Below, one piece after another: positions 5,064 through 40,168 of a stretch of 64,000 nt of DNA. Each line of letters starts with the position of its first letter. Position 1 is the stretch's first letter. The DNA comes from Loxodes magnus (Eukaryota > Ciliophora > Karyorelictea > Loxodida > Loxodidae), in NCBI GenBank assembly GCA_946699065.1, contig CAMPDV010001195.1, forward strand, positions 1 to 64,000, given 5' to 3'. A model generated the notes under the pieces. The model saw only the letters and a program-made list of their open reading frames with translations, was not told the origin of the DNA and did no database searches. Position numbers and translations under genes: made by a program.

Positions 5064-6300
5064 AAAAAATTATTTTTAACATACTTTTTTATCTTCATCA
5101 GATACTGTATAAATATAAAAAATGAAATAGGTAAGATAAAGAAAATAAAATAAATGTAAACATTTTATCTAAGCTATCGATAGTTAAGGTATATTCAGTT
5201 TATAAAAATTAGATGCTTCTAATTCAGAAACGAAAATGAAAGAAATGTTCTCTTAAATAATAAGAATCTGAAAGTTAAAATAAAAACATAGAAATTAGTC
5301 AATTAAATGAATTTTCAAGAACTTAATAGACTTAGATATTTAAGTAATTTAAATTCCTTATCATTGAATAGCCTAAATTATAAAAAAAGGGATTAAAGCA
5401 ATATTAGGTGGTTCTTGGAAACATTTTCAAGAAATTTTTATTCTATTTGTATAAATAGAATTTAAAGGTCTTATTCAAACTGTTTACTAAAGATCCATAA
5501 TATAATTAAATTAAATGTTTAATTTTATAAGAATTAAAATTGAGTTCTTTGTTTTAATGAAGCTTTTGACAAAATTTTATAGAATATTTTTCTAGAAACA
5601 CTAACTAATTTTAAAAATTTTAATCAATAAAAAAACAAAATTTGATGAATTGCTATTGATTACTATTTTTTTAATTTATTATGCTAAAATTATATTTTTC
5701 AAACTCATAATGAAATTAAATTATTACTTGATCATTTAATCATTAAGCAGTGAGTAAAAAATAAGTTTCTTTTCTTTCAATAACCTTAATAATGACTTTT
5801 AGTTTGTTTTTATAACTTTATTTATAGATTTATTGCTTTATTTATTTTAAGTTTTTTTCTAAACTAGCTACTAGTTTTGTTTTTCTTTGCTTAATACCTA
5901 ATTTAACTCCTTTTGGCATACCATTTTAATTATTGATTACAATAAAAAAAATTTCTTCTTTTTTGCTAATTTTTGTATAAACTTTTTTCATTTTTTATTT
6001 AGATAAAATTATCTTTTTCAAAATTAACTTTAACAGAAAGGAAATAGATTTAGAGGAGTAAATTGAAATTAAATTCTAAAGAACATATTACTATGATTTT
6101 AACTATGAATGTGAAAATTAGAGATAGTTATCTTGAATACATTAATATATACTTATTTTTATTCTTTAGGCAAACAATTAAAAAAGGAATTAAATCTTTT
6201 TATGAATTAAAATAGCTAAACTATTTTTCAAAATATTACGTTTATTAGATTTATTGCTAATTAATAATAATAGATAAAATTTTTTAGAGATCTTCTTGGA
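5064..6300. other. AT-rich stretch without recognised genes
   Basis: No tRNA, repeat copy or motif-bearing ORF was found. The sequence is A/T low complexity. Confidence 0.4.
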
Positions 6301-6301
6301 T

Positions 6302-7120
6302 TTTCACTAATTTCCCTCTTTCCAATCAGAATAGTCTGGTGAATAAAAAGAAAAGTTTATTGTTTCATTTCTATTTTTTCTTTTCTTAAATCTTGTATTT
6401 CTCTTCTCTCTCCATCTTTCATCCATCTACCTTGCTACTATTCTTTTGGCACTTGTCTCTTTAATTTGATAAATAGATTCTCTCTCAGTAATATGGATTC
6501 TTTCTGTCAGTCTCTTAACTCTCTAATTAAATTCATTCTTGAATACATAGAAATTTCTACACTATTTGTATTAGTGTCCTTTTTTTCTTGCAGTAATAGC
6601 ACTTTCTACTCTTCATTGTATTCTGATAAATTTTTGGTCTTTTTTCAATTTCCATTTGACAACCTTGCTAATTGTTTTAAAATTATTCTTAAATTTGATT
6701 TTGCCCCAATATCACAATTGGTTCTGTCTATTATGCACGTTCTGTTTATTTAATTAATTATGATTATGAGTATAATTTCATTTACTATATTTACTAAGAG
6801 CAGTCAGTTTGAATATTTCAATAGGCATCCATTTCTCTTTCTTATTTAATTAATCTATCTTCTACGTTTTCACGATTCTCTATCAATATTTAATTTTATT
6901 CCTTAAGCTTTTTTACCTCATTAAGCAAAATTTTTACTAATTCTGTAAGTTATTCAATGCTATTTCGATCCTCACCAAGATAAATTTCTGAAAGATCTTA
7001 GTCAACTGGAGTTTCTTATTACTTTGGAGGTGTGGACATTCTCTTCCTAGGTTTTGATTGTTTCTACTTTTTCTCTTCAGATTCTTATTAATTTTTACCT
7101 TTCTAATTTTATTTGGTAAA
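6302..7120 (-). CDS. Gag-like ORF: coiled coil plus degenerate zinc knuckle
   Basis: A single frame runs from about 7120 to 6302 when TAA/TAG are Gln and TGA is Trp. A likely start is ATG at 7037-7039 (MSTPPKQQETPVDQ). Residues 25-70 are a heptad-like coil (SIEQLTELVKILLNEVKKLK) that aligns with the ORFs at 7.3-8.2 and 11.0-11.9 kb. The TGA at 6818-6820 (MDAY-TGA-NIQ) aligns with Trp in the relatives (LNAF-W-NIS, IDTL-W-NYQ). A knuckle remnant CYYCKKKRTLIQIV keeps C-x2-C but has lost the His and last Cys. The tail is Lys/Glu-rich. The ORF lies head-to-head with the next one (starts at 7.04 and about 7.3 kb). The role is inferred from architecture only: RNA-binding Gag-like protein of a mobile element. 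Confidence 0.5.
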
Positions 7121-7320
7121 AAATCCAGGCTTAATTTTTTTAATTATTCTATTGCTAATTAGTTAATTTTATATTTATAGTCTATAAATTAAATTAAGAA
7201 TATTCATTTCTTTATGATTATGCTTTATTATTGACAGATCTTATAATAATTGTATTAAATAATCTTCCCGTAAAATTGCTAATTCAAATAAAAAATATAT
7301 CGGATTTCAAAAAGAAATTT

Positions 7321-8157
7321 TTTACTCTTAAGATTTAATAGGCTGGCACGTGGCAACAATAGGAGGAGCAGAAGCTGTTTAAGAAAGTCGCAAATGGACT
7401 AACGTCAACATCGGAAGAAAAGCCTAGGAAACAAGTTAAATCCGCTTTTCATTAAGAGATTACAGAGTTAAATCCCTCTTGTCAGATGAGTATGAAATAG
7501 CTCATCAAATTATTACTGAGTTTTTAGGAAGAGGTCAGGAAACTCAGAAATGAGAATGAGAAACCGACAGAAAAGATCCAACACAGACTTCAAGACACCT
7601 TAGACTTCAGAATGGCAAATTAAAAGAGGGAGATTGACACTCTTTGGAATTACTAACGAGAGAAATCCAGTTAGACGAACTCCCAAGTGGAGAGGATCCA
7701 AGCTTAGAATTCTTAGATTGAAAATCTTTCACAGAGTCAGAAGACACAGATTCAACTAGAACAGAACGATAAAATGGAGATTGAAAAGACTCTTCAAGAA
7801 ATAAAGAAAAAAGAAGAAAAAACAGATTAAGATTTAGAAACTATGCTATTATTGTAAAAGTAAATATCAACTGTGGAAGAATGTGCATAATTTTGTAAAG
7901 TTAAGGAAAAATAATGACAGAAATAAATTTAATAAAAATAATAAAAAGAAGGAAAATTAGATCTGATGCGTAGAGAATGGAGCGGTTTAAAGGTTGAAAA
8001 TGGATTCGGAAGCAGAAATAGAAGTTTTAAGATGAAGTACAGTAAGACAGTAATCTCGAGTGCTAGAGATCGTAAAAAACTAGACTCAAACTTCCAAATA
8101 TTTTTAAGCGGTGATATGTCTGACACCTCGAACATTTTAATAATAACTATTTGCTAA
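7321..8157 (+). CDS. Gag-like coiled-coil ORF with frame-displaced zinc knuckle
   Basis: One frame is open across this whole stretch if the TGA at 7915-7917 is read as Trp and TAA/TAG as Gln. It starts without a clear ATG (internal ATGs at 7486 and 7492, MSMKQLIKLLLSFQEEV). It aligns with the coil of the ORF at 11.0-11.9 kb (MSIEQLIKVVLNLQEEV). A zinc knuckle (CYYCKSKYQLW) is readable only in the +1 frame at about 7845-7880, while the main frame resumes with REWSGLKVENGFGSRNRSF. So two small indels appear to flank the knuckle. The C-terminal SNFQIFLSGDM resembles SQTFIFNSREH in the 11-kb relative. Codons are GC-richer than the flanks. Confidence 0.5.
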
Positions 8158-8361
8158 TCCATTCCATAATAATTATATAGCAACAATAATTGACAGCTTC
8201 TTAATCATAAGAATAACCTTTAAATAAACCAATTAGAAATTTAAATTATCATTAAGTAAAAAATTAAAATTAAAATTTCAGATTATTCTATTTTCTTCTA
8301 GTAATTTTATCTTAAGTTTTAGAAAGTATGTTTATAAATTAAGTATAAGATAAATAATAAT

Positions 8362-8428
8362 CTGGCAATTGATGGAAGAGCACCAGCCTGCAGAAATTCT
8401 GCAAATCAGTAGGTTCAAAGTTGCCCGA
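8362..8428 (+). pseudogene. tRNA-Tyr pseudogene
   Basis: Aligned with the intact tRNA-Tyr of the 35-40 kb array it keeps CTGGCAAT at the 5' end, TGGAAGAGCA of the D arm, the intron-region bases AGAAATT-TG-AAATC, GGTTCA of the T arm and TTGCCCGA followed by a T-run. It has lost several bases in the D and T arms. The 45 bases upstream (GTTTATAAAT, AAGATAAAT) also match the array unit, so this is a true homologue of the array's Tyr gene. It lies 52 bp before the intact tRNA-Ile. Confidence 0.75.
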
Positions 8429-8480: not shown

Positions 8481-8553
8481 GCTCTTGTAGCTTAGTGGTT
8501 AAAGCGCTGGTCTTATGAGCCAGAGATCGCGAGTTCGACCCTCGCCGAGAGCA
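8481..8553 (+). tRNA. tRNA-Ile(UAU)
   Basis: A full cloverleaf of 73 nt. Acceptor GCTCTTG pairs with CGAGAGC (one T-G), D stem GCTT/AAGC, anticodon stem CTGGT/GCCAG, loop CTTATGA with anticodon TAT, T stem GCGAG/CTCGC around TTCGACC, discriminator A. TTTT follows at once as a pol III stop, and TATATA lies 10 bp upstream. Position 37 is G, which is unusual for an anticodon ending in U. It is the only intact copy of this tRNA-Ile in the window and pairs with the decayed tRNA-Tyr just upstream. Confidence 0.9.
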
Positions 8554-8599: not shown

Positions 8600-10040
8600 A
8601 TATAAGTAATTTAGTTGATGTATATGATATAAATTTAATTAAAATTTAAGATAAATAATTAAGAAATTGCAAGGTAATACATATAAAACTTCAGAAAAAA
8701 GTAAAAGTATCTTACTGTTTAAAAGTAGATGCTTATAATTATAGTGATATTAATGAAGTTATGAAATAACCAATAGATAGATAAACATTTAATATCTTTA
8801 TCAAATATTACAGTTCTAAAACGATTAATCATTTGAATCAGCATATCATGCTTATTCTCTTTTTAAATTGTTACTAGAATGTTTAAATTTCATCATCTAT
8901 TTAAAATTTCTCAATGAATGTATAAACCTTTTTTAACTTAGGTTTAATTATAAAAAGGTAGTAAATGATCTCTTAAGTATGCAATGAATGAAGTCTCTAG
9001 TTTTGTAATATTCCTTCAAATAATTTGGTTTTTTTATTGCTTTATTACTATTCTCTGCTTGCAACTATTATTCTACCATTTTTGTATAGCTATTTTAATA
9101 ATAGTAGAACGTTTAATTGATATAATTAAGACCTATAGCTTAGTTTCTAGGAAATATGGTTATTTCTATTGCTAGCTAGCTGCTTATAGAATTATTGCTT
9201 TATAAATTATTTATTATGCTTCAGCTCTCTTAGCTCCAACTAATTTTTATTCTTAATCATAGAAAAACGCACAAAATTCTTGCTGCGATAAAAGCTACAT
9301 TTATAGAAAATTCTTTAAGCAATTTAACTATAGTGGAGCTATAGATTATCTGAAATGTGGTAGCCTAAATAGTTAAGAAATGATAAATAAATCTAGATTT
9401 CCTAAAAGCATCTTTCATCAAAATAATTAGATTTAACTACTAAAGAATAATTAGTTCTTGCTTGCTTAAAGAAGCTTAGCGCCAATAACGTTTATCAATT
9501 TCTACTTTTACCTAAAAAATACTTGGCATTCTCAGAGAAAATTATTAGGAATGTAAGATTTAACAATTTTAAGCTTTACTAGAGAATTAAAAAATGCAAG
9601 ATTATTTTATACTTACATGCATTTTATTAAGGAATTTTAATTTTCCACTCTTCTTTTGTCTGCTATTTCTCAAAAGCTTTCTTTAGAAAATATTTTAAGT
9701 GAACATTTTAAGGCAAAAAGTTTGCAAAAATGATTTGACTAATAAAATAATAATAAAAGCATATCTTTATTTTAGATAATCAATCATTGCTAACTTATAG
9801 CTCAGATTATTTTAACTATATCAAAGAAAATCTAATTTAAGCAATTTTTTACTTTAAGCATTAATTTTAATTTCCCTCTAATCTACTTTTAATTGTTAGT
9901 ATCTAAACAAATAAGAAATTAAAATAAATGTTTATCTTTCCTTATTTAATTTAATTTTTATTTTAAGCAGAAAGGAGATATTATTTAGTATAACTTCAAC
10001 TAATATAGAATGTTTATAGTTGGATATTAAGTTTTTATTA
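8600..10040. other. AT-rich stretch; only chance-like open frames
   Basis: A plus-strand frame from 8984 is open to 10276 with one TGA, starting with two hydrophobic segments. It contains no recognisable motif, and a length like this is expected by chance when TAA/TAG count as sense. I do not call a gene. Confidence 0.35.
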
Positions 10041-10049
10041 TTCAAATAT

Positions 10050-10407
10050 AAAATGGATATCGGCCACGTCAGAAAAACTAGTAGGTAATCTGGTGCAGTG
10101 TATATTGCATTGCGAGTAATCTCACACTAGATGCCTCCAAGGTGAAGGGTGGATAAGCTTCATTGAGTCATGCCTAACTTACCCAGAGGGTTCTCTCTAG
10201 CAGTATGAAAGTTTAACTGACGAGCCTTAATGACTTAATAACAAATTCTTATTTGGACCTTATTCAAGAAGACTGAAGTATTTGACTCAAGATTTAAGAA
10301 TAAGTTTGAATAAGAAGATTCCCCATTTGGAGAAGCTGACATGACTCGTAGAACTTCTAGAATTTTTCAAGAAACACGAGAACATTTTTCTTAATATTAA
10401 ATTCTAA
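10050..10407 (+). repeat. GC-rich island, unrecognised, ends at conserved 3' motif
   Basis: A block of clearly higher GC content (10053-10260) with short words such as GATATCGGCCACGTC and CCTCCAAGGTGAAGGGTGG, running into the conserved motif at 10408. It is unlike the block at 2.7-3.0 kb except for that shared 3' motif. Possibly the body of a second non-autonomous element. Confidence 0.35.
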
Positions 10408-10446
10408 TTTTGAAAGAGCTGCAAGCCAATGAGGTGCTAACACGCT
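10408..10446 (+). repeat. Conserved 3'-end motif, copy 2
   Basis: AAAGAGCTGCAAGCCAATGA, then GGTGCTA and CGCTCTATAAT; the same layout as 3133-3172. Read as protein it gives ANEVL, like TNEVL and TNEIL near 30.95 and 28.7 kb. Confidence 0.45.
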
Positions 10447-10473
10447 CTATAATAATTTTTATTTATTTATATC

Positions 10474-11037
10474 ATGTAAATGCTTATACTAGAAGATATA
10501 AAGGAACTTTAAGTCTAGAATTAAAGTTTATTACGAATATAATCAAATAATCAAGTAGCAAAGGCAATTTAAGTCTAATTTAAAAAAATTGAGAAAAATT
10601 TAGAAAGCTTATAAAGGAAAGTAAAGAATAAGCAAAGTTTAATTTAAATAGAAATGTTATTTAAAAACAAAAAGCAATCGAAAGAAATTTCTTTAGTAGC
10701 TATAAACGAAAAACTAAGTAATACTAAATAAAATATGAGTCTTTCATAATAAATTTAATCAAATCCTAAAAAATAGAAAAAGAAGTTTCTTAGGATACGC
10801 ATATTGAAAAAATTAAAGCATAAATTAAAAAAAATTTGAAAAGTTATTCGTAGCTAAAAGTTTTTAGTTAAACACCAAAGTGAAATAAACGATCAGAATT
10901 AAAGTGTTGAGTGTGAAGACCAAACTAAAAGCAAAAAAGAGTTAAACTAAAAGAAAAGATAATAAAATATTAAGTCACAAATCATAGCAAAATCCATTAG
11001 TAATATTAATTTTGAGTTTTCCATTTTAGAGATTTCC
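10474..11037 (+). CDS. Possible coiled-coil ORF, unrecognised
   Basis: ATG at 10474 opens a frame with one TGA (10834-10836) up to the junction with the antisense gag-like ORF at about 11040. The translation is Lys/Gln/Glu/Ile-rich and coil-like (LEDIKELQVQNQSLLRIQ, KKIEKNLESLQRKVKNK). A-rich DNA gives such translations by chance, so support is weak. It lies tail-to-tail with the next ORF. Confidence 0.25.
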
Positions 11038-11044
11038 AATCCCG

Positions 11045-11971
11045 TCAGGAAGACAGCAGTTCATGCTCCCTGCTGTTAAATATAAATGTTTGGGACGTCC
11101 AATTTTAGTGAGGTTGGGAACTCGGGTTTCTCAAGGTTTTCCTTCCTTTTACTTGATATGGTTCCATCTTGATCTTATATATTGAACCATCCGGGTTGCA
11201 ATGCATTTTTTTCATTTTTTTCATTTTTTTCATTCTTGCTTCTTCTTTTTTCTTCTTTTGTTGTTCTTTTATCCAATAGTTTCTTTATTTCTATTAGAAT
11301 TTCTAACACTTCCGATAAAAAGATCATAAACTTCCACAGCAGAAACATTACTTTTTTATTTTTAATTATTTTCCTTTATTTGTTTGCTCTTTCTAGGCTT
11401 CGATTTCCATTTGTATAGCTCCAGTTTCGCTTTACTCTTTCTTAAAAGTTTACAACTTCTCTTCTACTTTTCCGATTCTGTTATCCAGTTCAATCTGTTT
11501 CGATAGCTAATTTTAGGATTCGTTAGTCTGACTTTGTGAGATATTCCAAAAGGCGTTAAGATCTCTTTCCTAGGATATAAGTCTTGACTTAATTCCTTCT
11601 GTTAGGTCTAGTTTTGCCATTAGCATATCATTGTCCTTCTTCAATCTCTTGACCTCTTCCTGGAGGTTCAATACCACTTTGATGAGCTACTCTATGCTCA
11701 TCTCTTCTGGTCAGAAGGGTTGAATTCTGATACCTTCTGGTGGAGAACAGACTTCATCTGTTTCCTCGGTTTCTCGCTTGAGGTTAGAGTTTCTGTGTGT
11801 ATATTCTTCAAGGTTGGCTTTTGTTCGTTTTGTTAGATTCCAGGCTGTTAGCTCAGTGTTGGTTAAGGTTGTGATAGAGAAGATTGTTGTAAATGTAAAT
11901 GTAAATTAAGTGTTAAGGAAGGGACTGTTATCTTAATAGATGCCTACCTGATGTGTGTTAAGTGCACATCA
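11045..11971 (-). CDS. Gag-like ORF: coiled coil plus zinc knuckle read through TGA
   Basis: One frame from just after a TGATGA at 11969-11974 down to TGA 11045-11047, reading TAA/TAG as Gln and two TGAs (11711-11713 and 11324-11326) as Trp. The ATG at 11699-11701 begins MSIEQLIKVVLNLQEEVKRL, the coil shared with the other copies; sequence upstream of it also looks coded (NLEEYTHRNSNLKRETEE), so the true start is uncertain. The knuckle is CFCCGSL-TGA-SFYRKC: with TGA as Trp the C-x2-C-x4-x-x4-C spacing is exact, though His is Ser. After it comes a run of KKM repeats and a C-terminal SQTFIFNSREH motif shared with the 7.3-8.2 kb ORF. GC content is well above the flanks. Likely RNA-binding Gag of a mobile element. 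Confidence 0.55.
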
Positions 11972-11989
11972 TCACTAATCTTTTCTTCT

Positions 11990-12430
11990 TTTGTATGTCT
12001 TTTGGGCTTTCCTATCGTCTCGCTTGGACCCATTTCTCGGCTTTATAGGCGAATATCGCCATCCAGTCCGTCTTCAACTGGCAGAAACCGCCGATCTGCC
12101 TAGGTAGCTCCTAAGAGGTGGAGAGATCACTCCAAGGCGGCACATCGGTCTGAGTTAGTAAGAGGTGTAATTGAGTCCCTTAGTTGGGAAGTCCAAGGAT
12201 GAATGCACAAGTTGTTGAGGGAAGGTATTTAAGCCTTTCTGCGGCTTATTGCATCTTCATCGCAAGTCCCTTTAAACTTGCTGAAGGTCCCCTGTGCATC
12301 TCAGGTCCCATTTCCACCCTCTTTAATTTCAATTATATAGAGAAGATTGTTAAGATTATTAAGACTTAGTTTCTTGCTTCCTCCCTTCCTTTTTGGCTTA
12401 GGAAGAGGTAGTATAGAAACCTGACTTGAA
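11990..12430 (-). promoter_or_regulatory. GC-rich leader upstream of gag-like ORF
   Basis: The stretch just upstream of the minus-strand gag-like ORF is close to balanced in base composition, unlike the rest of the window. It contains words such as GGCGATATTCGCC and CGGCGGTTTCTGCC. I see no long ORF in it. It may be the 5' leader or internal promoter of that element; this is inference from position and composition. Confidence 0.35.
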
Positions 12431-14778
12431 ACCTTCAACCATTTTATTATAATAATAGCAAAATAAAGAACCAAATAGCCAACCTTTACAAATAATTAAA
12501 AGGTTATTTAAAACTAAACCTTTATAGATGGTAAAAAGTTAAATCTAAGCTTTACTATAATTCACCAAAATTTCTCTAATCCTATTAAAGAATAAGATTA
12601 TTCATTCGATAGCTATCCGAATTTAGCTTTATTAAAAATAAATTAGAGATTATTAGTATTTTATCATTCTCCAAATAATCATGGAAAAATAACTTTTGGT
12701 TAATAATAAACATTTTTTGATTAAGAACCTTTATAGAAGCCTATTAAAATCAGATTAAATAATTGAACTCTTACAATCTTTGAACAGAATAATGAAGAGA
12801 ATTAAACGATAATAATCAAATTGAATCAGATAATATTGATGTTTCAAATTTCTTTTACGCTGAAATTTTCGGAGAAAAAACTTTTATTTAAGCTTCTAAG
12901 AGTTAATTAAAGAATCCTAACTAAATGATTAGCTTTTAAGGTTTAAAAAATGACAGCTATAGGAAGCAAGTGGATAAAAAAATTTGGTAAGCCTTCTTTT
13001 AGAAAAATGACTCGTTAAAGTGCAAACTTACAATTATTTTTATAAATCTTGTTGCTTGAGACAAAGGCTGTAATTTTTTAGTCAAGTTTAGAAATAAAAT
13101 AGGAAAATAAAATAATTACTGAAGGTACTTAAATTATTAATCAAGAGAAAGTGAATCAAGAAGTATCTTTTCAAAAATTAAATGATAGATAATTAGAGAA
13201 ATAGTAACTGGTATATATAAAAGCTTAGATATTGAAAACCTCAGTTAGGAAGTTTATAACTAATTTTAACTCATAATTTCGTAATATGCCTGAGAGTTTT
13301 AAATACTTGATAAAGCTGCTTTTTATTGAGAATTGTTCTAAGTGCTGTTTTGGTAATCTTTCTCCTTTCGAGAAATATAAAGGTAATAACTTCAAGGAAG
13401 TTTAAAATAATAAATAATACTTAATATAGAGAGGCTACACTTTTACTTATCTCATTCTTTCTATTCATAAATTTACTTTTTTAGAACTTTATTTTAAATT
13501 CCGAAGATAAAACAATTAGAAATTTGGATATAAACCATTTTGGTAGCAATTTCAAGTTTAATATAACTTTTAGTTTCATAAATTTTTGTATCTAAAAATA
13601 TTAAAAAGAGGAAAATCTTTAAATTTAACAAAGCTTTTATTAAGGGAAATGCTAGGAAAATGATAATGCAAGACTCTATTTCAGAGTAACTATGAAGGAG
13701 CATCTGAAAGCTTGTTTTCATAAATTTGCTTGAATTTCTTGTCTGCAAATTTGCATCAACAAATTTAATTACTGTAAGATAAATAGAGAGAAAATGTGGA
13801 GAGTTTATATAGCTACCTTGTTCATAATAACTAGAATTATGCTGATTAACTCTAAGTCTTTGATGGTAACTCCAATTATTCTTGAATAAGTTTATATTAT
13901 TAATTATTTGATATTTAAGTTTCCACTTAACTTTCAATACAATCAAAAATAAAGAGAAACTTAAATAGCTAAGCTTTAATAAATATCGCTCTCTAGCTTA
14001 CTTAATAATAAATATGACTTAGTGCTTTATTATTGTTTTTATTTAAAGCACTATTTCAGTTATACAGTTACTCTTAAACTGACTATAATAATTGCTTCAC
14101 TAAACTTAAATTAACTAATTAATATTTAAATAAATAAGCAAGTTAGTTTAGAAGCATAACTATTCATTTATTATTCTTCCTCATTTACAATAAGAAGATC
14201 AAAAAGCAGCTAAAATAACTAAACTACTAATAAGCCAATCCTTAGTTTTATGACTGTACTTTACTAATTTCTAATTCCTTCTAATTTAAGTAAAGAAGCA
14301 ATGTGAATACATTTTATCGATAAAGACTATTAATTGATGCTTACACTTAATTAGCCCTTGCTTCTATGATTTACTAGATATACCCTAAATAACAAAAATA
14401 TGCTTATATGTAATATTTTAGTTTAGTTCATAAGATAGTTAATCAAATATTTCCCTTTAATCAAGTATAAATAGCTATATTAAGTTGCTATATCACTAAA
14501 TACAAAATTATAAGCTAAAATTACATCAAATAGCTTTTACTTAAGTTAATTAGACTAAAAATTAAGTAAACATGTATTGCAAAGATTAGGCTCAAACAAG
14601 ATATTTGGTATTAAATTTGAGGATTAAATTATAGAAGAATATTGAACTAAATTAGTAAAAGCTTAACTTAAGTAAGATAGAGTTTCCTTTATCATTGTAA
14701 TAATAGAGCTATACTTATACATTATATGAAATAATAGACTTACTATTAAATTAGTATACTTATGATCAAATATTCATT
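12431..14778. other. AT-rich stretch; one long stop-free frame
   Basis: No repeat copy or RNA gene found. A minus-strand frame at 13494-13946 is open for 150 codons without any TAA, TAG or TGA, which is unusual here; it shows no motif I recognise and has no CCHC or coil. See the finding for that interval. Confidence 0.4.
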
Positions 14779-15062: not shown

Positions 15063-15703
15063 CAATGATGATGATAAAATATTAAAGTATATAACTATAA
15101 TTACTTAATAATGCTCATGTATGAAGGCTATTTATTCTTTTAGATCTACATTATAATTTCTAGGAAGTTAAAGAAAGACTTAATTACGCTTGATATAGTT
15201 TACACTTAGATATTGTAGCAGGTTTTAGTACTTCTAAAGGTCTTTGCAATGAGAAGGGTAGAAATTTAACAAATAAAAAAAAATGAAACTAACCTCACAT
15301 TTTCTTATTCTAATATGATGGTTGAAGAGATTCGAAATAATAGAAGATTCTAATATCTACAAAGATATTAAAGCATAAAACATTTACTTAAGCATTATAG
15401 TTAGTACTTTACATTTAAATAATTTATTACTTAATTACAACTAAAATAATGCAAATCACTAAATTTAGAGGCAGTATCAGTTCTAATATTTCCTCTTTTT
15501 CTTGATATAAATAAGCAAAGAAGAAAAATAATTAGTTTAAGATATCAAGGACTTATCATATTAAGACGAAAAATGGAAAAAAGGAATTTTTTCATTTAGT
15601 AGAAGTAAATATTTTAATAACTTACTAAAGTTAATTATTCCTTATATACTCCTAATCATATTTATACAGTGATAGTTTTATAAGGGAGGAGCTTATTTAA
15701 TGG
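15063..15703. other. AT-rich spacer between structured repeat and LINE 3' end
   Basis: No gene or repeat recognised. Confidence 0.4.
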
Positions 15704-15729
15704 AATTTAAATTTAAATTTAAATTTAAA
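15704..15729 (-). repeat. (AAATTT)n microsatellite tail of the LINE
   Basis: About four uninterrupted AAATTT units 100 nt downstream of the ORF stop, at the place expected for a LINE 3' tail. Confidence 0.6.
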
Positions 15730-15831
15730 CTAAAAGAGTTTTTTGACGTCTTTAATTGCAAGAATTGCTTCTTTCAATTATAGACGTTAGTAAATGTTTT
15801 TAAATAGTTTTTTAATCTTGTTTACATCTCA

Positions 15832-18800
15832 TCATTTTTCTTTAATTAGTTCTTCTTTCTATTCATCTTTAGCTTCTTCCTTTTTTGCTTTCTCCATTTC
15901 TAGAATCTCAAGTCTCCTTGTCATTAGCTTCTTATGAAATATTTTGATCTATAAGTCTAAATACTCCAATTTAGACCTTGAAAATGAGTTTAGATATTCT
16001 TGATCGTATAGTATAAGGCGCCTTAAGTCATAATTTCCGATATTTTCCGATAATAAATTCATTATATTAGAATAGTACACACATTTAAAGATATGCTCGA
16101 AAGTTTCATACTCTCCACACATACAATAGGGATTATCAATGGGGTAATGACGATCTTAAAGATCCTTACGGAAATTATAAGTTTAGGTTCTAAGTTTATA
16201 TATACTGATAATTTCTCGTCTATACTATTTGTTTAATTTAGTATAAGTAATTTGTGGAAATTGTTAAAGATTACCAAATTATTCAGTATATACTCTAGCT
16301 GTTTTCATCCTCATAAATTTTTTAGTAGCTACTTTGTAGAAATATTGTTGTATTTTTTCTCTTACATGTTTAGTAAAAGTTTTAAGATTGGTATTATTCT
16401 ATTAATTCTGCAGATCGATATTATAAAGGTCTGATAATTGCTACACTTAATCGTAGTATTGAAATCCTTTTTTCCATATATTAATGAAAAGAGAGCCTAT
16501 TGTTGATCTTGGAAAATCAGTACTTTCTTATTTAATTTTATGGTAGAATCTGAAGAATTTTATAGCCATAATGTGCTTAAAGGGTAATCAATTCAGGTCT
16601 ATATAACATGATTCATTAAATGTTGAAGATGCTACTTAAAAAGCTTTTCTTGAAATTAATCTCATGCTTGATTCTATTCTGTTCAGAACTCCAGTTACTC
16701 CTTTTTGAATACTTCATGGTACTAAGTCTCCTCCATATTCTGCTTTAGGTAATGTAAAAAGTCTACATAAAGTTTTAAAATGTCAAGGAGTTACATTCTT
16801 ATATCTCATCAGTTAAAAAACAGCTTTCTTCATTGCAGCTATATACTTGAATGCAGTTTCTTTGCAATGGGGATTTAAGTTCTTCTTCTAATGTAGAATA
16901 ACTCCTAAATATGTTACTTGTTCTTTTTAAGCAATTGGCTAATTTCCTAATTATAAATTTAAAATTTATTATTTCTGATTCTTCTTTAGAAATTAGATGC
17001 ATTCGGATTTGGTAACATTAATCTTTAAATGTGTTCATGCAAAAACTTTATTTGCTTCATTTATTAAATTCTACATCTACTTTGCAGATTTGGAAAGAAG
17101 AATAAGATCATCTGCCCATCCTCTACAAGCGAAGCTAATACTTGAATCCTGGCATTTAAATCCCAATTAGGTACTTTTACTTTCCAGATATCTAATTACT
17201 ATGTCATAATACAATAATGCTAAAACTGGTCCATGAGAACTTCCTTACATAACTCCATTGTTGAACTATAAAGTTCTGGTGCTCTTACCATCTATGATAA
17301 ATGAAGAATTTAGGTTTTTATAAAACGATTCTAAAGCTATTATTATTCCAAGTGGTAGTTTAACTCTCTTAAGTTAATCAAACAAGAGTCTTCTTTCTAT
17401 TGAGTCAAACATTTTTTCAACGTCTATCAGTGTTGCTATCAATTTAGTCTTACCTTTAGCACATTTCCGATAGTTATCAATTATTTGTTATATTATTCAA
17501 ATTTATTAAGTTGTTTATCTGTTTTTCATAAATCCCATTTATGAAGGGTGAATCAAATTTCTCTAATAAATCAGATTGTATAGTCTTTTTGTTAAAGCTT
17601 TATCATATAGTTTTAGAATAGTATTAATAAGAGAAATAGGTAGTCAGTTTTTCCAATCATCTTTATTTCCTTTTTTAAATATTGGAATTATCACCGATAT
17701 ATTTAATTCCTAAGGGATTCTTCCAAGTCTTAGCATATTATTCAGAAAAGAATGAAGAATTATTAATAAATATTATCCACCATATTTCAGAAGTTCGCCT
17801 TTTATTCCATCTGGACCAGCTGCTTTTCCATTCGGAATTTCTTTTATAATTTCTTATATTTCTTTTATGGTAAAAAGATCAAATCCTTACAAATACGAGA
17901 GTGGATAATCTTTAATTTCTTAAATATTATCGTATATTTTATCTATTTTTTAATTACTAAGATTTATCTATTCTTGAGTTAGATTATAATGCTTGTTAAA
18001 AACACAATTTTCCCATGATTCAATGAATTTATTTTTGATTTCTTAATTAAAGTTCATAGTATTTCTCTTCAAAGGATTTAGAATTTTCTTAGCCTGTGAA
18101 AAAATTTCCCTAGAATCTCCATTAAGAAGTAGAAATTTCTTTTTTGCTTTGTTTTTTTTAAATTTTCATAGATTATACTTGAAGTCTTTCCAAAGTCGTT
18201 TTGCTTCCTCATGAAGATTAGTTACTTGCTAGTTTATTCTTCCAAATCTTACGTGAGCTTCCTTATATTCTGAGTTAGTTCTTTTTGCCTCTATATATTT
18301 CTTTGTGAGAGCTCGAGGAAGTTTGTTATAATTTGAATCTGGAATAAACGAACCTAATGTTTGATCAGCATTGTCTTAAATATTACTTTTGATGCATTCA
18401 TATTAATCTTCAAGATTATCTTAATCTATTTAAAAGAATTCTAGATAAGTTTGTAGGAAAGATTCTTAATATTTTTATCTATCTATTGCATCTTATAACC
18501 TATTTATTTTATATTTTCTCTGAGTTATCTTTTCCCAATATACTATAGAATTATTGATAAAGTCGACAGTGATTGGAATATGATCAGAAAATAAACTATT
18601 ATTATGAGCAGTGAAATTTGCAAACTAATTAACGTTCAAATGGTTGCTTATAATGATATAATCATTACAATACGTTTTTCCTGTTCCTTTGTGAATACAT
18701 GTATTAATGTTGCTATCATTCACTATCTCAAGATCGTTTTATAGTAAGAATTCTTATAGTCTAATGTTATTATCATAAGCATTTTCAGGATTATCACCGA

Positions 18801-21747
18801 AGCCTTATAAAAGAGCATTGAAATCTCCCATTAGTATATGTGGATTATCATTATATAAATTCAGCAATGTATTTAGTTGTTCATAAGCTAAATCTTTAAC
18901 ATCTTAACTTTTTCCATTATCAGGCATGTAACAAGACGTGATTAAAATATTATCCAGTTTAATTGTTATGAATCTATTTATTTCTTTTTCAACTTATATA
19001 TGTATTTCTGTACTATTAAATTCTTCTCCTACAATTAAGCATACACCTCCTCCTTTTCCTGAGTTCTTAAAATATGTTTTAAATCCATTTATCAATATTG
19101 GAGGAAAGTCATCTTTTTATCAGGTTTCGTTTATTGATAAAATATCTATACTGTTATCTCTGATAAATTCTTCAATATTCAAGCACTTGCTCGCTATTCC
19201 ATTAATATTTATATGTCCCATCTTTATTTTTTAAATTTATTAGTCCTTTCTAATTTTTTCCGAGCCTGCAGATAGACCACTTTCGTAAATGCAAATGCTT
19301 TTCTATCCTTATTGGTTAATCTAAATATGTACTAATCTTTTTCCATACTCAGGATGTTAATGAAAATATTGTATCAAAATATATATTACTTACGTCGTAT
19401 ATTTTTTAAGTAGCTTTCTATCTATATCAATTTTACTTTTCACACTATCACATGTACCTTATTCTAAATCTTAAGTAACTGTGACATATCTACCTTATAT
19501 ATTGTGCATTTCGTACTATGGACGTCTTCAAGTTTCGGATTTAATAAACTTTTAAAGTTATAGACTAGTCAGATTGAAATAACATATTATTTAATCGCAC
19601 TCTTTTTTATTATTATGTTTACTCATACGTTTTGCTGGCGGAATTGTTTTATCTTCTTCTTCATGTTTCCTTTTAAGAATATTAAGATTAATATTGGAAG
19701 ATAAGGTTTAATTCTGATAAATAGCATCGATCGAATCTGTTTAGTTTTATTAATCTTTTTTTCATCTTTTAGTAGAATAATTAAATATATCTTTTTTCAA
19801 ATTTTAATTAAGTTTTTAAAACTCTTCTATTTTTATCTCAAGTGTCTACATATTTTGGGTACTTTAAATGAATTTTAAGTTGAGTTAGTGATATTAATGC
19901 TATAGTAAAACAAAATCTTCATCTGGCAATTTTATTTGACAGTATTAGTTATTATGTTATGTTATAATAGTATTAGTTTATGCTTCCTATTAATTATTTT
20001 AAGTTTACATTAACTTGTCTTGCTTGATTATATTTGTTTGAGTAAATTTTTGACACAAAAAAGCTGTTTATTATTTATTTATATTATCTGTTTAGATAAT
20101 ACTATCCTTTGTTTAAATATTTCCATATAATGTCTAAGTTTATGCATCTACAAATTACTTCTTCTAAAATTACTATTAATTACTGAATTCTTTTGTATGT
20201 TAGATTTAATTCTAAAATAATTCTTTATACATTTGAATTTCCTTATTTTTTAATAGAATTTAATTTTGAAAAGCTATATTTATTTCATATTTTTATTATC
20301 TTTACTTATCTAATTCGATTTTAAAAGTTAAAATTTCCATTTAAGCTTTCTATTCTTAATCTATAAATTACTTATTTTAGTTTTATAATTTTTAATATTA
20401 AGAATATAACTCTTGGAGTTAAATTTCGTTTATTATTTTTTATTAGGTAATTTGTTGAAGTAAATATTAGTTCTATTCTAATATAGTCTATTGATATCCT
20501 TGCTAAGTTTTATTTAGAAAGTTATCTATTTCAATTTAAGTAAAATTTTTAATTTTATTAAAGTTTTGGCATAGTGAATTATTTGCTCCTATCATTTAAG
20601 CTTAAGTAAAGCTTTAATTAGCATTGGCTTCAATTTGAATCTCTTAATTAGATTATATTTCATATTTTGAATTGACTTAATTCTCATAGTTTTTCTATTA
20701 TATCTAAATTTCTTGAAATATACTAATTATTTCATCTGTTTAAACTATTTAGTTACTGTAATAAGTGGAGAAGTTTGTTTAAGTAATTTTATGAACTAGT
20801 TATTTTGATAGCATTTTTTTGTGATATTGCTATATATCAGATTTGATTGACTAAAAATTGTTCTATAATTGTTTATATTTCTAATAAATTTTATTTATAT
20901 AAGTTTTATAATATATTTTGGATATTTCTTAGTTACTTATCAATGTTTCAATATCTCGTTCATATTTTGCTTTTATATTAATTAACATTTCATTTAATTA
21001 TTGGTTCTTATCTATAAGTCTTTATATATTATGTTTAAGTTCTTTTATTTCTAAGATAAATAAATTCTCATTAGACTAATTAATTATTTAATTTTATATT
21101 ATATTTCTTAAATCAGCAGTTTAATTTTAAGCTTGTTTGCTCTGAAGATCAGGTAAATAATGATTATTTGAATTATCAGGATTAGTAGTATTATTTTATT
21201 TCTGATTAATTTCGTTATTTGAAATTTAATAGAATTGTTAATTAGTATTATTCAAAAATGAATCTTAAGTTTATGTTATTTTTGACTACCATAAAAGGAT
21301 ATCTTTATTTGAATTTTAATTAGGATTTGAAGGTATATCTTTTGAATTCTAACTATCTAAGATAATATCTTATTTTTGGAAAGATTTCTTAGGTAATCGT
21401 TTCGTATCTTTCGCGGTATTATTTTAGGCGGTTAATCTGTTCATCTATTTATAGGTTGATTTCACTTTCATAATACGCTACAATTAATATCCACGTTGAA
21501 GAGAGTTCCTAAGTAGTTTTAATGGGACGCGTATGAATTTGTTTTCCGGTTTTTGACTACAATTTTTAAGTAGTTGTCTTAATAAATTCATTATTAGGTT
21601 TACTTATTTAATTTGTAGTTACTCCAAATCTTTCGTTTGGAGATTTTAATGCACCTGCCTATGCTTTTCCTATGAATTTGCAGCTTCTTTGAAATTAATT
21701 AAAGAAGAGTCACTATTAAAAACTAGTGAATTCTATATTTCGTCCAT
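15832..21747 (-). CDS. LINE polyprotein: gag-like, APE endonuclease, reverse transcriptase
   Basis: One frame of 1,971 codons from ATG 21745-21747 (MDEIQNSLVF) to a double TGA at 15834-15829. TAA/TAG must be Gln and ten internal TGAs must be sense. Residues 1-840 are Gln/Asn-rich with long coils. The APE endonuclease starts near 843 (MGHININGIASK), with INET-W near 872-876, GKGGGV, GDFNA at 974-978 and SDHIPI at 1054. Reverse transcriptase: KAAGPDGIKGEL near 1310, N-W-LPIS at 1368, QMGFMKNRQ, QGSSHGPVL, then GWADDLI with the catalytic WADD at 1544-1547, YLGV, and LN-W-LPF at 1720. Near the end is C-x-C-x7-H-x3-C (1875-1889). Four TGAs fall at strongly conserved Trp sites. If TGA is a stop, gag (ending at residue 739) and pol would be separate, in the same frame. 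It would nick target DNA and copy its own RNA. Confidence 0.85.
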
Positions 21748-21871
21748 TTTTTTGTTTTTTTGTTTTATTACCATTTATTTTATTTAATGGAATTTATGAA
21801 GTAATTAAGTTTAGATTTATTAGTTAAAAATTACTTTTAAAATCAAAGAATTAAATGAACAACAAAACAGT

Positions 21872-32819: not shown

Positions 32820-32892
32820 GCAGACATGGTCTAGTGGCTATGACGACTGCTCGATACGCAGTAGGTCGTAGGTTTGATCCCCGCTGTCTGTA
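32820..32892 (+). tRNA. tRNA-like gene, anticodon position GAT (Ile), non-canonical
   Basis: A 73-nt cloverleaf: acceptor GCAGACA/TGTCTGT with a terminal G-T, D stem GTC/GAC, anticodon stem ACTGC/GCAGT, loop TCGATAC, T stem GTAGG/CCCGC with an A-C mismatch, discriminator A, TTTT soon after. By position the anticodon is GAT, but base 33 is C instead of the near-universal T. One lost base in the loop could have changed an Arg(UCG) or other tRNA into this. Treat the identity as uncertain and a pseudogene as possible. Confidence 0.6.
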
Positions 32893-35455: not shown

Positions 35456-35588
35456 CTAAAAATATTCTTTTACAGACATAATACTCTTTTTTCTTTTTAC
35501 ACTTCTATATCTCCTTTTCACTCACTTTTTCAAACTTACAACCAATATTTTCTCTTCAAATACCTCTTTTACTTCATATTTTAAAAAA

Positions 35589-35655
35589 TGCTCTCGGTGA
35601 GGGTCGAACTTACGATCTCTGGCTCATAAGACCAGCGCCACTAAGCTACAAAAGC
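35589..35655 (-). pseudogene. tRNA-Ile(UAU) pseudogene, array unit 1
   Basis: 67 nt instead of 73. Compared with the intact gene at 8481 it lacks TTAAAG of the D arm (TAGTGG joins CGCTGG), has an A-C mismatch in the middle of the T stem (GTAAG/CTCAC) and more G-T pairs in the acceptor (GCTTTTG). Anticodon loop CTTATGA, discriminator A and a T6 terminator are kept. Without a D stem it should not fold as a normal tRNA, but the T-run suggests it could still be transcribed. Confidence 0.8.
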
Positions 35656-35716
35656 TGCTGTATATACTTTTATTTCATCATTTTATATTCTTTTTTATTT
35701 CCTTTTCATAAAAAAA

Positions 35717-35800
35717 TCCGGCAACTCGGGATTGAACCGAGGACCCTGAGATTTCCACAATTTCTACAGTCTCATGCTCTTCCAGCTGAGCTATTGCCGG
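35717..35800 (-). tRNA. tRNA-Tyr(GUA) with 11-nt intron, array unit 1
   Basis: 84 nt. Acceptor CCGGCAA/TTGCCGG, D stem GCTC/GAGC, anticodon stem TGAGA/TCTCA and T stem CTCGG/CCGAG are all perfectly paired; loop CTGTAGA carries anticodon GTA; discriminator A. An 11-nt intron lies between positions 37 and 38, where eukaryotic tRNA-Tyr genes normally carry one. T7 follows as the pol III terminator. The start CCGGCAATAGCTCAG is typical of eukaryotic tRNA-Tyr. The matching gene at 8362 is broken, so the array may be the working source of this tRNA. Confidence 0.95.
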
Positions 35801-35959
35801 TTTATCATTTATCTTATTCTTTATTTATAAACATATTCTTTTACAGACATAATACTCTTTTTTCTTTTTACACTTCTATATCTCCTTTTCACTCACTTTT
35901 TCAAACTTACAACCAATATTTTCTCTTCAAATACCTCTTTTACTTCATATTTTAAAAAA

Positions 35960-36026
35960 TGCTCTCGGTGAGGGTCGAACTTACGATCTCTGGCTCATAA
36001 GACCAGCGCCACTAAGCTACAAAAGC
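35960..36026 (-). pseudogene. tRNA-Ile(UAU) pseudogene, array unit 2
   Basis: Same 67-nt D-arm-deleted form as at 35589. Confidence 0.8.
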
Positions 36027-36087
36027 TGCTGTATATACTTTTATTTCATCATTTTATATTCTTTTTTATTTCCTTTTCATAAAAAAA

Positions 36088-36171
36088 TCCGGCAACTCGG
36101 GATTGAACCGAGGACCCTGAGATTTCCACAATTTCTACAGTCTCATGCTCTTCCAGCTGAGCTATTGCCGG
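36088..36171 (-). tRNA. tRNA-Tyr(GUA) with intron, array unit 2
   Basis: Identical by eye to 35717-35800. Confidence 0.95.
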
Positions 36172-36330
36172 TTTATCATTTATCTTATTCTTTATTTATA
36201 AACATATTCTTTTACAGACATAATACTCTTTTTTCTTTTTACACTTCTATATCTCCTTTTCACTCACTTTTTCAAACTTACAACCAATATTTTCTCTTCA
36301 AATACCTCTTTTACTTCATATTTTAAAAAA

Positions 36331-36397
36331 TGCTCTCGGTGAGGGTCGAACTTACGATCTCTGGCTCATAAGACCAGCGCCACTAAGCTACAAAAGC
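36331..36397 (-). pseudogene. tRNA-Ile(UAU) pseudogene, array unit 3
   Basis: Same form as unit 1. Confidence 0.8.
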
Positions 36398-36458
36398 TGC
36401 TGTATATACTTTTATTTCATCATTTTATATTCTTTTTTATTTCCTTTTCATAAAAAAA

Positions 36459-36542
36459 TCCGGCAACTCGGGATTGAACCGAGGACCCTGAGATTTCCAC
36501 AATTTCTACAGTCTCATGCTCTTCCAGCTGAGCTATTGCCGG
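36459..36542 (-). tRNA. tRNA-Tyr(GUA) with intron, array unit 3
   Basis: Identical by eye to unit 1. Confidence 0.95.
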
Positions 36543-36701
36543 TTTATCATTTATCTTATTCTTTATTTATAAACATATTCTTTTACAGACATAATACTCT
36601 TTTTTCTTTTTACACTTCTATATCTCCTTTTCACTCACTTTTTCAAACTTACAACCAATATTTTCTCTTCAAATACCTCTTTTACTTCATATTTTAAAAA
36701 A

Positions 36702-36768
36702 TGCTCTCGGTGAGGGTCGAACTTACGATCTCTGGCTCATAAGACCAGCGCCACTAAGCTACAAAAGC
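36702..36768 (-). pseudogene. tRNA-Ile(UAU) pseudogene, array unit 4
   Basis: Same form as unit 1. Confidence 0.8.
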
Positions 36769-36829
36769 TGCTGTATATACTTTTATTTCATCATTTTATA
36801 TTCTTTTTTATTTCCTTTTCATAAAAAAA

Positions 36830-36913
36830 TCCGGCAACTCGGGATTGAACCGAGGACCCTGAGATTTCCACAATTTCTACAGTCTCATGCTCTTCCAGCT
36901 GAGCTATTGCCGG
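36830..36913 (-). tRNA. tRNA-Tyr(GUA) with intron, array unit 4
   Basis: Identical by eye to unit 1. Confidence 0.95.
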
Positions 36914-37072
36914 TTTATCATTTATCTTATTCTTTATTTATAAACATATTCTTTTACAGACATAATACTCTTTTTTCTTTTTACACTTCTATATCTCCTT
37001 TTCACTCACTTTTTCAAACTTACAACCAATATTTTCTCTTCAAATACCTCTTTTACTTCATATTTTAAAAAA

Positions 37073-37139
37073 TGCTCTCGGTGAGGGTCGAACTTACGAT
37101 CTCTGGCTCATAAGACCAGCGCCACTAAGCTACAAAAGC
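37073..37139 (-). pseudogene. tRNA-Ile(UAU) pseudogene, array unit 5
   Basis: Same form as unit 1. Confidence 0.8.
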
Positions 37140-37200
37140 TGCTGTATATACTTTTATTTCATCATTTTATATTCTTTTTTATTTCCTTTTCATAAAAAAA

Positions 37201-37284
37201 TCCGGCAACTCGGGATTGAACCGAGGACCCTGAGATTTCCACAATTTCTACAGTCTCATGCTCTTCCAGCTGAGCTATTGCCGG
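37201..37284 (-). tRNA. tRNA-Tyr(GUA) with intron, array unit 5
   Basis: Identical by eye to unit 1. Confidence 0.95.
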
Positions 37285-37443
37285 TTTATCATTTATCTTA
37301 TTCTTTATTTATAAACATATTCTTTTACAGACATAATACTCTTTTTTCTTTTTACACTTCTATATCTCCTTTTCACTCACTTTTTCAAACTTACAACCAA
37401 TATTTTCTCTTCAAATACCTCTTTTACTTCATATTTTAAAAAA

Positions 37444-37510
37444 TGCTCTCGGTGAGGGTCGAACTTACGATCTCTGGCTCATAAGACCAGCGCCACTAAG
37501 CTACAAAAGC
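37444..37510 (-). pseudogene. tRNA-Ile(UAU) pseudogene, array unit 6
   Basis: Same form as unit 1. Confidence 0.8.
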
Positions 37511-37571
37511 TGCTGTATATACTTTTATTTCATCATTTTATATTCTTTTTTATTTCCTTTTCATAAAAAAA

Positions 37572-37655
37572 TCCGGCAACTCGGGATTGAACCGAGGACC
37601 CTGAGATTTCCACAATTTCTACAGTCTCATGCTCTTCCAGCTGAGCTATTGCCGG
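37572..37655 (-). tRNA. tRNA-Tyr(GUA) with intron, array unit 6
   Basis: Identical by eye to unit 1. Confidence 0.95.
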
Positions 37656-37814
37656 TTTATCATTTATCTTATTCTTTATTTATAAACATATTCTTTTACA
37701 GACATAATACTCTTTTTTCTTTTTACACTTCTATATCTCCTTTTCACTCACTTTTTCAAACTTACAACCAATATTTTCTCTTCAAATACCTCTTTTACTT
37801 CATATTTTAAAAAA

Positions 37815-37881
37815 TGCTCTCGGTGAGGGTCGAACTTACGATCTCTGGCTCATAAGACCAGCGCCACTAAGCTACAAAAGC
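37815..37881 (-). pseudogene. tRNA-Ile(UAU) pseudogene, array unit 7
   Basis: Same form as unit 1. Confidence 0.8.
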
Positions 37882-37942
37882 TGCTGTATATACTTTTATT
37901 TCATCATTTTATATTCTTTTTTATTTCCTTTTCATAAAAAAA

Positions 37943-38026
37943 TCCGGCAACTCGGGATTGAACCGAGGACCCTGAGATTTCCACAATTTCTACAGTCTCA
38001 TGCTCTTCCAGCTGAGCTATTGCCGG
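37943..38026 (-). tRNA. tRNA-Tyr(GUA) with intron, array unit 7
   Basis: Identical by eye to unit 1. Confidence 0.95.
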
Positions 38027-38185
38027 TTTATCATTTATCTTATTCTTTATTTATAAACATATTCTTTTACAGACATAATACTCTTTTTTCTTTTTACACT
38101 TCTATATCTCCTTTTCACTCACTTTTTCAAACTTACAACCAATATTTTCTCTTCAAATACCTCTTTTACTTCATATTTTAAAAAA

Positions 38186-38252
38186 TGCTCTCGGTGAGGG
38201 TCGAACTTACGATCTCTGGCTCATAAGACCAGCGCCACTAAGCTACAAAAGC
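38186..38252 (-). pseudogene. tRNA-Ile(UAU) pseudogene, array unit 8
   Basis: Same form as unit 1. Confidence 0.8.
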
Positions 38253-38313
38253 TGCTGTATATACTTTTATTTCATCATTTTATATTCTTTTTTATTTCCT
38301 TTTCATAAAAAAA

Positions 38314-38397
38314 TCCGGCAACTCGGGATTGAACCGAGGACCCTGAGATTTCCACAATTTCTACAGTCTCATGCTCTTCCAGCTGAGCTATTGCCGG
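38314..38397 (-). tRNA. tRNA-Tyr(GUA) with intron, array unit 8
   Basis: Identical by eye to unit 1. Confidence 0.95.
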
Positions 38398-38556
38398 TTT
38401 ATCATTTATCTTATTCTTTATTTATAAACATATTCTTTTACAGACATAATACTCTTTTTTCTTTTTACACTTCTATATCTCCTTTTCACTCACTTTTTCA
38501 AACTTACAACCAATATTTTCTCTTCAAATACCTCTTTTACTTCATATTTTAAAAAA

Positions 38557-38623
38557 TGCTCTCGGTGAGGGTCGAACTTACGATCTCTGGCTCATAAGAC
38601 CAGCGCCACTAAGCTACAAAAGC
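38557..38623 (-). pseudogene. tRNA-Ile(UAU) pseudogene, array unit 9
   Basis: Same form as unit 1. Confidence 0.8.
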
Positions 38624-38684
38624 TGCTGTATATACTTTTATTTCATCATTTTATATTCTTTTTTATTTCCTTTTCATAAAAAAA

Positions 38685-38768
38685 TCCGGCAACTCGGGAT
38701 TGAACCGAGGACCCTGAGATTTCCACAATTTCTACAGTCTCATGCTCTTCCAGCTGAGCTATTGCCGG
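38685..38768 (-). tRNA. tRNA-Tyr(GUA) with intron, array unit 9
   Basis: Identical by eye to unit 1. Confidence 0.95.
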
Positions 38769-38927
38769 TTTATCATTTATCTTATTCTTTATTTATAAAC
38801 ATATTCTTTTACAGACATAATACTCTTTTTTCTTTTTACACTTCTATATCTCCTTTTCACTCACTTTTTCAAACTTACAACCAATATTTTCTCTTCAAAT
38901 ACCTCTTTTACTTCATATTTTAAAAAA

Positions 38928-38994
38928 TGCTCTCGGTGAGGGTCGAACTTACGATCTCTGGCTCATAAGACCAGCGCCACTAAGCTACAAAAGC
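38928..38994 (-). pseudogene. tRNA-Ile(UAU) pseudogene, array unit 10
   Basis: Same form as unit 1. Confidence 0.8.
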
Positions 38995-39055
38995 TGCTGT
39001 ATATACTTTTATTTCATCATTTTATATTCTTTTTTATTTCCTTTTCATAAAAAAA

Positions 39056-39139
39056 TCCGGCAACTCGGGATTGAACCGAGGACCCTGAGATTTCCACAAT
39101 TTCTACAGTCTCATGCTCTTCCAGCTGAGCTATTGCCGG
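39056..39139 (-). tRNA. tRNA-Tyr(GUA) with intron, array unit 10
   Basis: Identical by eye to unit 1. Confidence 0.95.
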
Positions 39140-39298
39140 TTTATCATTTATCTTATTCTTTATTTATAAACATATTCTTTTACAGACATAATACTCTTTT
39201 TTCTTTTTACACTTCTATATCTCCTTTTCACTCACTTTTTCAAACTTACAACCAATATTTTCTCTTCAAATACCTCTTTTACTTCATATTTTAAAAAA

Positions 39299-39365
39299 TG
39301 CTCTCGGTGAGGGTCGAACTTACGATCTCTGGCTCATAAGACCAGCGCCACTAAGCTACAAAAGC
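39299..39365 (-). pseudogene. tRNA-Ile(UAU) pseudogene, array unit 11
   Basis: Same form as unit 1. Confidence 0.8.
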
Positions 39366-39426
39366 TGCTGTATATACTTTTATTTCATCATTTTATATTC
39401 TTTTTTATTTCCTTTTCATAAAAAAA

Positions 39427-39510
39427 TCCGGCAACTCGGGATTGAACCGAGGACCCTGAGATTTCCACAATTTCTACAGTCTCATGCTCTTCCAGCTGAG
39501 CTATTGCCGG
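39427..39510 (-). tRNA. tRNA-Tyr(GUA) with intron, array unit 11
   Basis: Identical by eye to unit 1. Confidence 0.95.
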
Positions 39511-39669
39511 TTTATCATTTATCTTATTCTTTATTTATAAACATATTCTTTTACAGACATAATACTCTTTTTTCTTTTTACACTTCTATATCTCCTTTTC
39601 ACTCACTTTTTCAAACTTACAACCAATATTTTCTCTTCAAATACCTCTTTTACTTCATATTTTAAAAAA

Positions 39670-39736
39670 TGCTCTCGGTGAGGGTCGAACTTACGATCTC
39701 TGGCTCATAAGACCAGCGCCACTAAGCTACAAAAGC
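39670..39736 (-). pseudogene. tRNA-Ile(UAU) pseudogene, array unit 12
   Basis: Same form as unit 1. Confidence 0.8.
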
Positions 39737-39797
39737 TGCTGTATATACTTTTATTTCATCATTTTATATTCTTTTTTATTTCCTTTTCATAAAAAAA

Positions 39798-39881
39798 TCC
39801 GGCAACTCGGGATTGAACCGAGGACCCTGAGATTTCCACAATTTCTACAGTCTCATGCTCTTCCAGCTGAGCTATTGCCGG
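39798..39881 (-). tRNA. tRNA-Tyr(GUA) with intron, array unit 12
   Basis: Identical by eye to unit 1. Confidence 0.95.
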
Positions 39882-40107: not shown

Positions 40108-40168
40108 TGCTGTATATACTTTTATTTCATCATTTTATATTCTTTTTTATTTCCTTTTCATAAAAAAA

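Follow-up and report, generated by a model that had tools for sequence, protein, structure and literature searches.

The nuclear genetic code of the karyorelict ciliates Loxodes and Parduczia is NCBI table 27 (PMC11441545, PMC4967479). For Loxodes magnus, PMC11441545 describes a macronuclear (MAC) assembly of 706 Mbp that uses table 27, in which UAA and UAG (UAR) are read as Gln and UGA is read as Trp or stop. The sections drawn on here also describe two families of long interspersed nuclear elements (LINEs), each with a consensus of 5-6 kbp and about 3,000 copies. Judged by titles and abstracts, literature searches brought up just that paper as dealing directly with both UGA and LINEs in this genome. 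In addition, Loxodes is reported in portions of PMC13092985 and PMC12005148, both citing Swart et al., to have a tRNA-Trp(CCA) with a 4-bp stem. Such short-stem tRNAs are also described in Blastocrithidia, Condylostoma and others (parts of PMC13092985, PMC12153298 and PMC12005148). Here, a 64,000-nucleotide stretch of the Loxodes magnus genome (contig CAMPDV010001195.1, positions 1 to 64,000), called the window, was analysed for a LINE on its minus strand whose reading frame contains internal TGA codons.

The LINE protein is almost certainly written in the code of its host, table 27, which has UAA and UAG as Gln, internal UGA as Trp and UGA near the end as the stop; the element is a young, full-length LINE. 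This reading of UGA is carried mainly by host genes.

UGA as a tryptophan codon in host genes

Alignment of the LINE with other LINEs gave a mixed result (five of eight columns aromatic in the forward direction, four of 17 in reverse, as detailed below) and the test was therefore moved to host kinase genes, using the best 30 of 136 kinase matches. These 30 genes hold 21 TGA and 61 TGG codons, making TGA 21 of 82 Trp codons. The two codons share alignment columns: those containing TGG hold 17 of the 21 TGA, versus 168 of 7,549 other codons (Fisher P 1e-24, with related genes treated as independent). The best Trp column is number 196, which we take to be the DxW site of kinases, where there are 22 TGG, 7 TGA and 1 Tyr. 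A second Trp column has 9 TGG, 5 TGA and 1 Phe, and a third has 16 TGG, 1 TGA, 3 Phe and 1 Ile. Thirteen of the 21 TGA fall in columns with a Trp share of 70% or more, a count that is partly circular because TGA itself was scored as Trp. None of the one-step neighbours CGA, AGA, GGA, TAA, TCA, TTA, TGT and TGC occurs in these columns, and this includes the Cys codons TGT (0 of 101) and TGC (0 of 68).

UGA could instead encode another aromatic residue or, as in Euplotes, cysteine. Tyr or Phe occupies five of the eight TGA columns in a diverged LINE family, which would suit an aromatic other than Trp, but the host TGA sits in kinase columns made up almost entirely of TGG and the Cys codons fall in none of those that are at least 70% Trp, leaving this alternative scarcely credible. 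Some placements do weigh against Trp itself. Columns 238 and 162, which have no TGG, account for four of the 21 TGA (three and one), and among the 17 that share a column with TGG, four stand where Trp is the minority: column 113 has two, columns 159 and 195 a single one each. Overall, the kinase test is strong and, on these aligned codons, host genes appear to settle that UGA is read as Trp. The original prediction had named host genes that never use internal TGA as evidence against itself; this is not so, as the 30 kinases carry 21, mostly at Trp columns. For the UAR codons, the kinases contain 185 TAR (TAA or TAG) versus 100 CAR (CAA or CAG), and their TAR columns pair with Lys, Glu, Asn and Gln, with no clean column.

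The LINE, its relatives and its genomic copies

The frame and its domains, with the basis for each, are as follows:

15832..21747, minus strand: open reading frame of the LINE, with 1,971 codons and a closing TGA (codon count, Pfam, 24 scored full-length copies)
18580..19209, minus strand: endonuclease domain, Exo_endo_phos, residues 847-1056 (Pfam E 4.3e-09)
16894..17664, minus strand: reverse transcriptase domain, RVT_1, residues 1362-1618 (Pfam E 3e-27)

By codon count the frame contains 10 internal TGA, 7 TGG, 124 TAA, 42 TAG, 43 CAA and 9 CAG. TGA thus makes up 10 of 17 Trp codons, and TAR totals 166 versus 52 CAR. The original prediction had placed ten TGA in this frame, with coordinates for four of them, and about seven TGG; all four coordinates are exact and the counts are 10 and 7. 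The frame closes with an eleventh TGA (15832-15834), and the codon right after it is a twelfth. TGA is scarce in this frame, occurring 11 times versus 30 to 57 times per frame in the remaining five, and TAR is not depleted (166 versus 105 to 173). The openness of the frame was set aside as evidence for the code because no frame can close once UAR and UGA all stand for residues. Instead, the real weight lies in the endonuclease and reverse transcriptase domains, which Pfam finds in one protein and a single frame, together with the full-length genomic copies. The profile of the protein matches L1 ORF2p and R2, relatives with solved structures.

The ten internal TGA codons are listed below with the residues found opposite them in rows of other LINE families; each is TGA in all eight copies compared.

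19762..19764, minus strand: codon 662
19528..19530, minus strand: codon 740
19120..19122, minus strand: codon 876 (ET-W, endonuclease); Gln in the 6 aligning rows of the other family
18166..18168, minus strand: codon 1194; other family mostly Lys
17644..17646, minus strand: codon 1368 (N-W-LPIS, reverse transcriptase); Tyr in 30 of 30 rows, Trp in R2, Phe in L1
17497..17499, minus strand: codon 1417; Phe in 29 of 30 rows
17035..17037, minus strand: codon 1571; Lys in 29 of 30 rows
16783..16785, minus strand: codon 1655; Tyr in 27 of 28 rows
16714..16716, minus strand: codon 1678; Tyr in 25 of 27 rows, 2 gaps
16588..16590, minus strand: codon 1720; Phe in 25 of 27 rows

Each row is one locus, 30 in all, from other LINE families with E no higher than 1e-19 and about 23% identity to the window protein; since 28 are members of a single family, the rows are not independent. 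Eight of the ten TGA columns could be scored, and their majority residue is Tyr in three, Phe in two, Lys in two and Gln in one. This is an aromatic share of 5/8 versus 105 of 1,092 columns (P 4e-4). The six scorable TGG columns have majority Pro (two) or Trp, Tyr, Arg and Ser (one each).

Several of these results weigh against reading UGA as Trp. The residue is poorly conserved between LINE families, codons 876, 1194 and 1571 stand opposite Gln, Lys and Lys, and in the reverse comparison the 17 mostly-TGA columns of the other families have Phe in the window protein four times and a non-aromatic residue 13 times, on an aromatic background of 11.6%. The LINE-to-LINE alignment would consequently support Trp only moderately and is a weak line. 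The consensus argument of the original prediction, which takes Trp to be the usual LINE residue at these positions, is likewise weaker than stated: at codon 1368 the claim holds for R2, while L1 has Phe and another Loxodes LINE family Tyr. Opposite the other TGA codons there is no Trp in the L1, R2 and LINE-family alignments, several TGA being outside the aligned stretches.

The source assembly (705,730,643 bases, 7,843 contigs) was searched with the LINE protein. Out of 22,961 first-look candidates, 24 copies were scored; all 24 align over residues 1-1971 with 10-12 TGA each, and they are dispersed on different contigs. Seven of the further copies were compared codon by codon with the window copy, from which they differ at 6-17 positions per 5,913 nt. 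In all eight, every one of the ten TGA and seven TGG codons is kept. Extra TGA codons occur at 981 and 1599 in one copy each, where the other seven have TAA, and codon 1898 is TGA in seven copies and TTA in the window copy. There are 29 variable codons, 12 of them synonymous and 17 non-synonymous under table 27; TAA/CAA swaps between copies are found at codons 220 and 1091.

These copies bear on the possibility that UGA is only a stop and that the LINE is a pseudogene in decay, its ten TGA being nonsense mutations. The mixed LINE-to-LINE comparison, taken alone, would leave room for this, as would the many genomic copies of another LINE family that lose frame towards the 3' end. Against it, the same ten TGA are present in eight of eight nearly identical copies and the full frame is kept in 24 of 24 scored copies. 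As host kinases have TGA at Trp columns, the pseudogene explanation is refuted in the main by host genes, and it is very improbable.

The ends of the element are as follows, the doubled TGA being present in all eight copies:

21780..21796, minus strand: target-site duplication, 5' copy, 17 bp
21748..21779, minus strand: A-rich leader, from the duplication to the ATG
15829..15834, minus strand: doubled TGA closing the LINE frame
15706..15729, minus strand: 3' tail, (TTTAAA)4
15693..15709, minus strand: target-site duplication, 3' copy, 17 bp, with a 4-base overlap with the tail

Target-site duplications of 11-17 bp flank seven of the eight copies, the 11-bp case being A/T only. A (TTTAAA)2-6 tail is present in all eight and starts 102 nt past the first end TGA. 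The element in the window, a non-LTR (long terminal repeat) retrotransposon or LINE, is young and full-length and lies in a karyorelict nuclear genome.

A second LINE family (loci L009-L038 except L011 and L014) has copies more than 85% alike in the reverse transcriptase part. Its 3' end consists of a G+C-rich palindromic stretch followed by a TTTA-rich end, and the frame is lost there in many copies. When this end was checked for a stop codon in 28 copies, none could be named, as frames are broken in many.

Decoder tRNA, release factor and termination

A tRNA-Trp pattern search of the assembly gave 136 matches (control 2). Three genes that were fetched (L071, L072 and L073) are tRNA-Trp(CCA) by ARAGORN and tRNA by Rfam. 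L071 has a full 5-bp anticodon stem and is not of the short-stem kind; in L072 and L073 the anticodon is CCA and the top anticodon-stem pair is mismatched in the Rfam alignment, which results in a 4-bp stem. The short-stem tRNA-Trp(CCA) core gave 124 matches (control 0), and the 100 places listed are all on contigs C148 and C67, with L072 and L073 representing one from each tandem array. The arrays run from 482309 on C67 (L073) and from 155450 on C148 (L072), with a spacing of about 187 and 241 bp. The primary paper on tRNAs of this kind is said to be that of Kachale et al. Published work suggests that UGA would be decoded here, as a near-cognate codon, by the short-stem tRNA-Trp(CCA).

The code could be as stated and the decoder a cognate tRNA-Trp(UCA) instead. 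Such a tRNA would be the simplest decoder, and sequenced ciliate mitochondria encode one (part of PMC4967479). Yet the UCA anticodon is found in only two among the 100 matches listed (of 136; either anticodon, at most one mismatch), neither ARAGORN nor Rfam takes the one of these two that was fetched for a tRNA, and the 124 short-stem CCA cores are present, so that a UCA decoder is unlikely. The short-stem tRNA-Trp(CCA) is thus preferred. Where the original prediction had pointed to a tRNA-Trp(UCA) or a suppressor-type tRNA-Trp, the probable decoder found is not a UCA form but a tRNA-Trp(CCA) in which the top position of the anticodon stem is unpaired; for its other suggestion, an altered release factor, there is an eRF1 N domain that differs from those of solved eRF1s at several positions involved in stop reading.

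The eRF1_1 profile has three matches in the assembly. The best, L069, was judged to resemble Pelota and was set aside in favour of L070 (contig C196), which aligns with solved eRF1s and keeps NIKS. In human numbering, by our own count on the alignment, L070 replaces Glu55 and Ser70 with Ala, Thr58 with Arg, Ser60 with Gln and Tyr125 with Phe (position 125 is Tyr in the 4crn chain). Two eRF1-like genes are found on C196, L070 at 19690-20100 and the other at 54613-54981, about 35 kb apart.

As the literature suggests, UGA would terminate translation only when it lies near the 3' end of a message. The 102 nt of LINE sequence past the first end UGA, which is followed by UUUAAA repeats in place of poly(A), is longer than the published median of host 3' untranslated parts (41 nt). 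Tentatively, and with the odds against it, the doubled UGA may be a fail-safe stop where poly(A) proximity is lacking, that is, the LINE's own answer to a sole stop that doubles as a sense codon. Because the LINE must obey the context-dependent stops of its host, its 3' end is a natural test of the stop rule, and together with the doubled UGA it could show how far from the end of a message UGA still terminates. Neither the doubled UGA nor the (TTTAAA)n tail is mentioned in the main-text parts of PMC11441545 that are drawn on here, and both may be in its supplement; the tandem UGA-UGA end, 102 nt ahead of the tail, is possibly unreported.

Elsewhere in the window, positions 35457-40723 contain 14.2 repeats of a 371-bp unit with two minus-strand tRNA genes per unit. 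The first, of 67 nt, is tRNA-Ile(UAU) by ARAGORN; the second, of 84 nt, has an Rfam match and was read as an intron-containing tRNA-Tyr(GUA). Single tRNA genes lie outside this array at 8481-8553, tRNA-Ile(UAU), and 32820-32892, tRNA-Ile(GAU). Arrays of tRNA genes seem to be common in the Loxodes magnus genome. A Pfam search of three frames each of 5404-8405 (plus strand) and 9998-13999 (minus strand) gave no match up to E 0.01.

Comparison with described systems

The original prediction of UGA as Trp together with UAR as Gln is supported for this genome, and UGA as Trp is seen best in host genes, where 17 of 21 TGA share a column with TGG; it needs the correction that UGA is also the stop codon in table 27, as published. 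The code, LINEs of this type and the short-stem tRNA are all already in print, so that the finding is right but already explained, and the analysis is a blind recovery, from raw sequence, of a published variant code. In common with the karyorelict code, the window LINE has UGA as Trp inside the frame and UGA at its end, with UAR probably read as Gln, and no difference was found from table 27. With the LINEs described in the sections of PMC11441545 used here, it shares a 5-6 kb non-LTR structure, an RVT_1 and an endonuclease domain, and many copies of low divergence; the endonuclease is named Exo_endo_phos here by Pfam and Exo_endo_phos_2 there. The short-stem tRNA-Trp is like those of Blastocrithidia and Condylostoma in its CCA anticodon and unpaired top stem pair. 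It differs from them in its unpaired bases, U-C or A-C, in the tandem arrangement of the genes and in the additional presence of a tRNA-Trp(CCA) with a 5-bp stem, L071.

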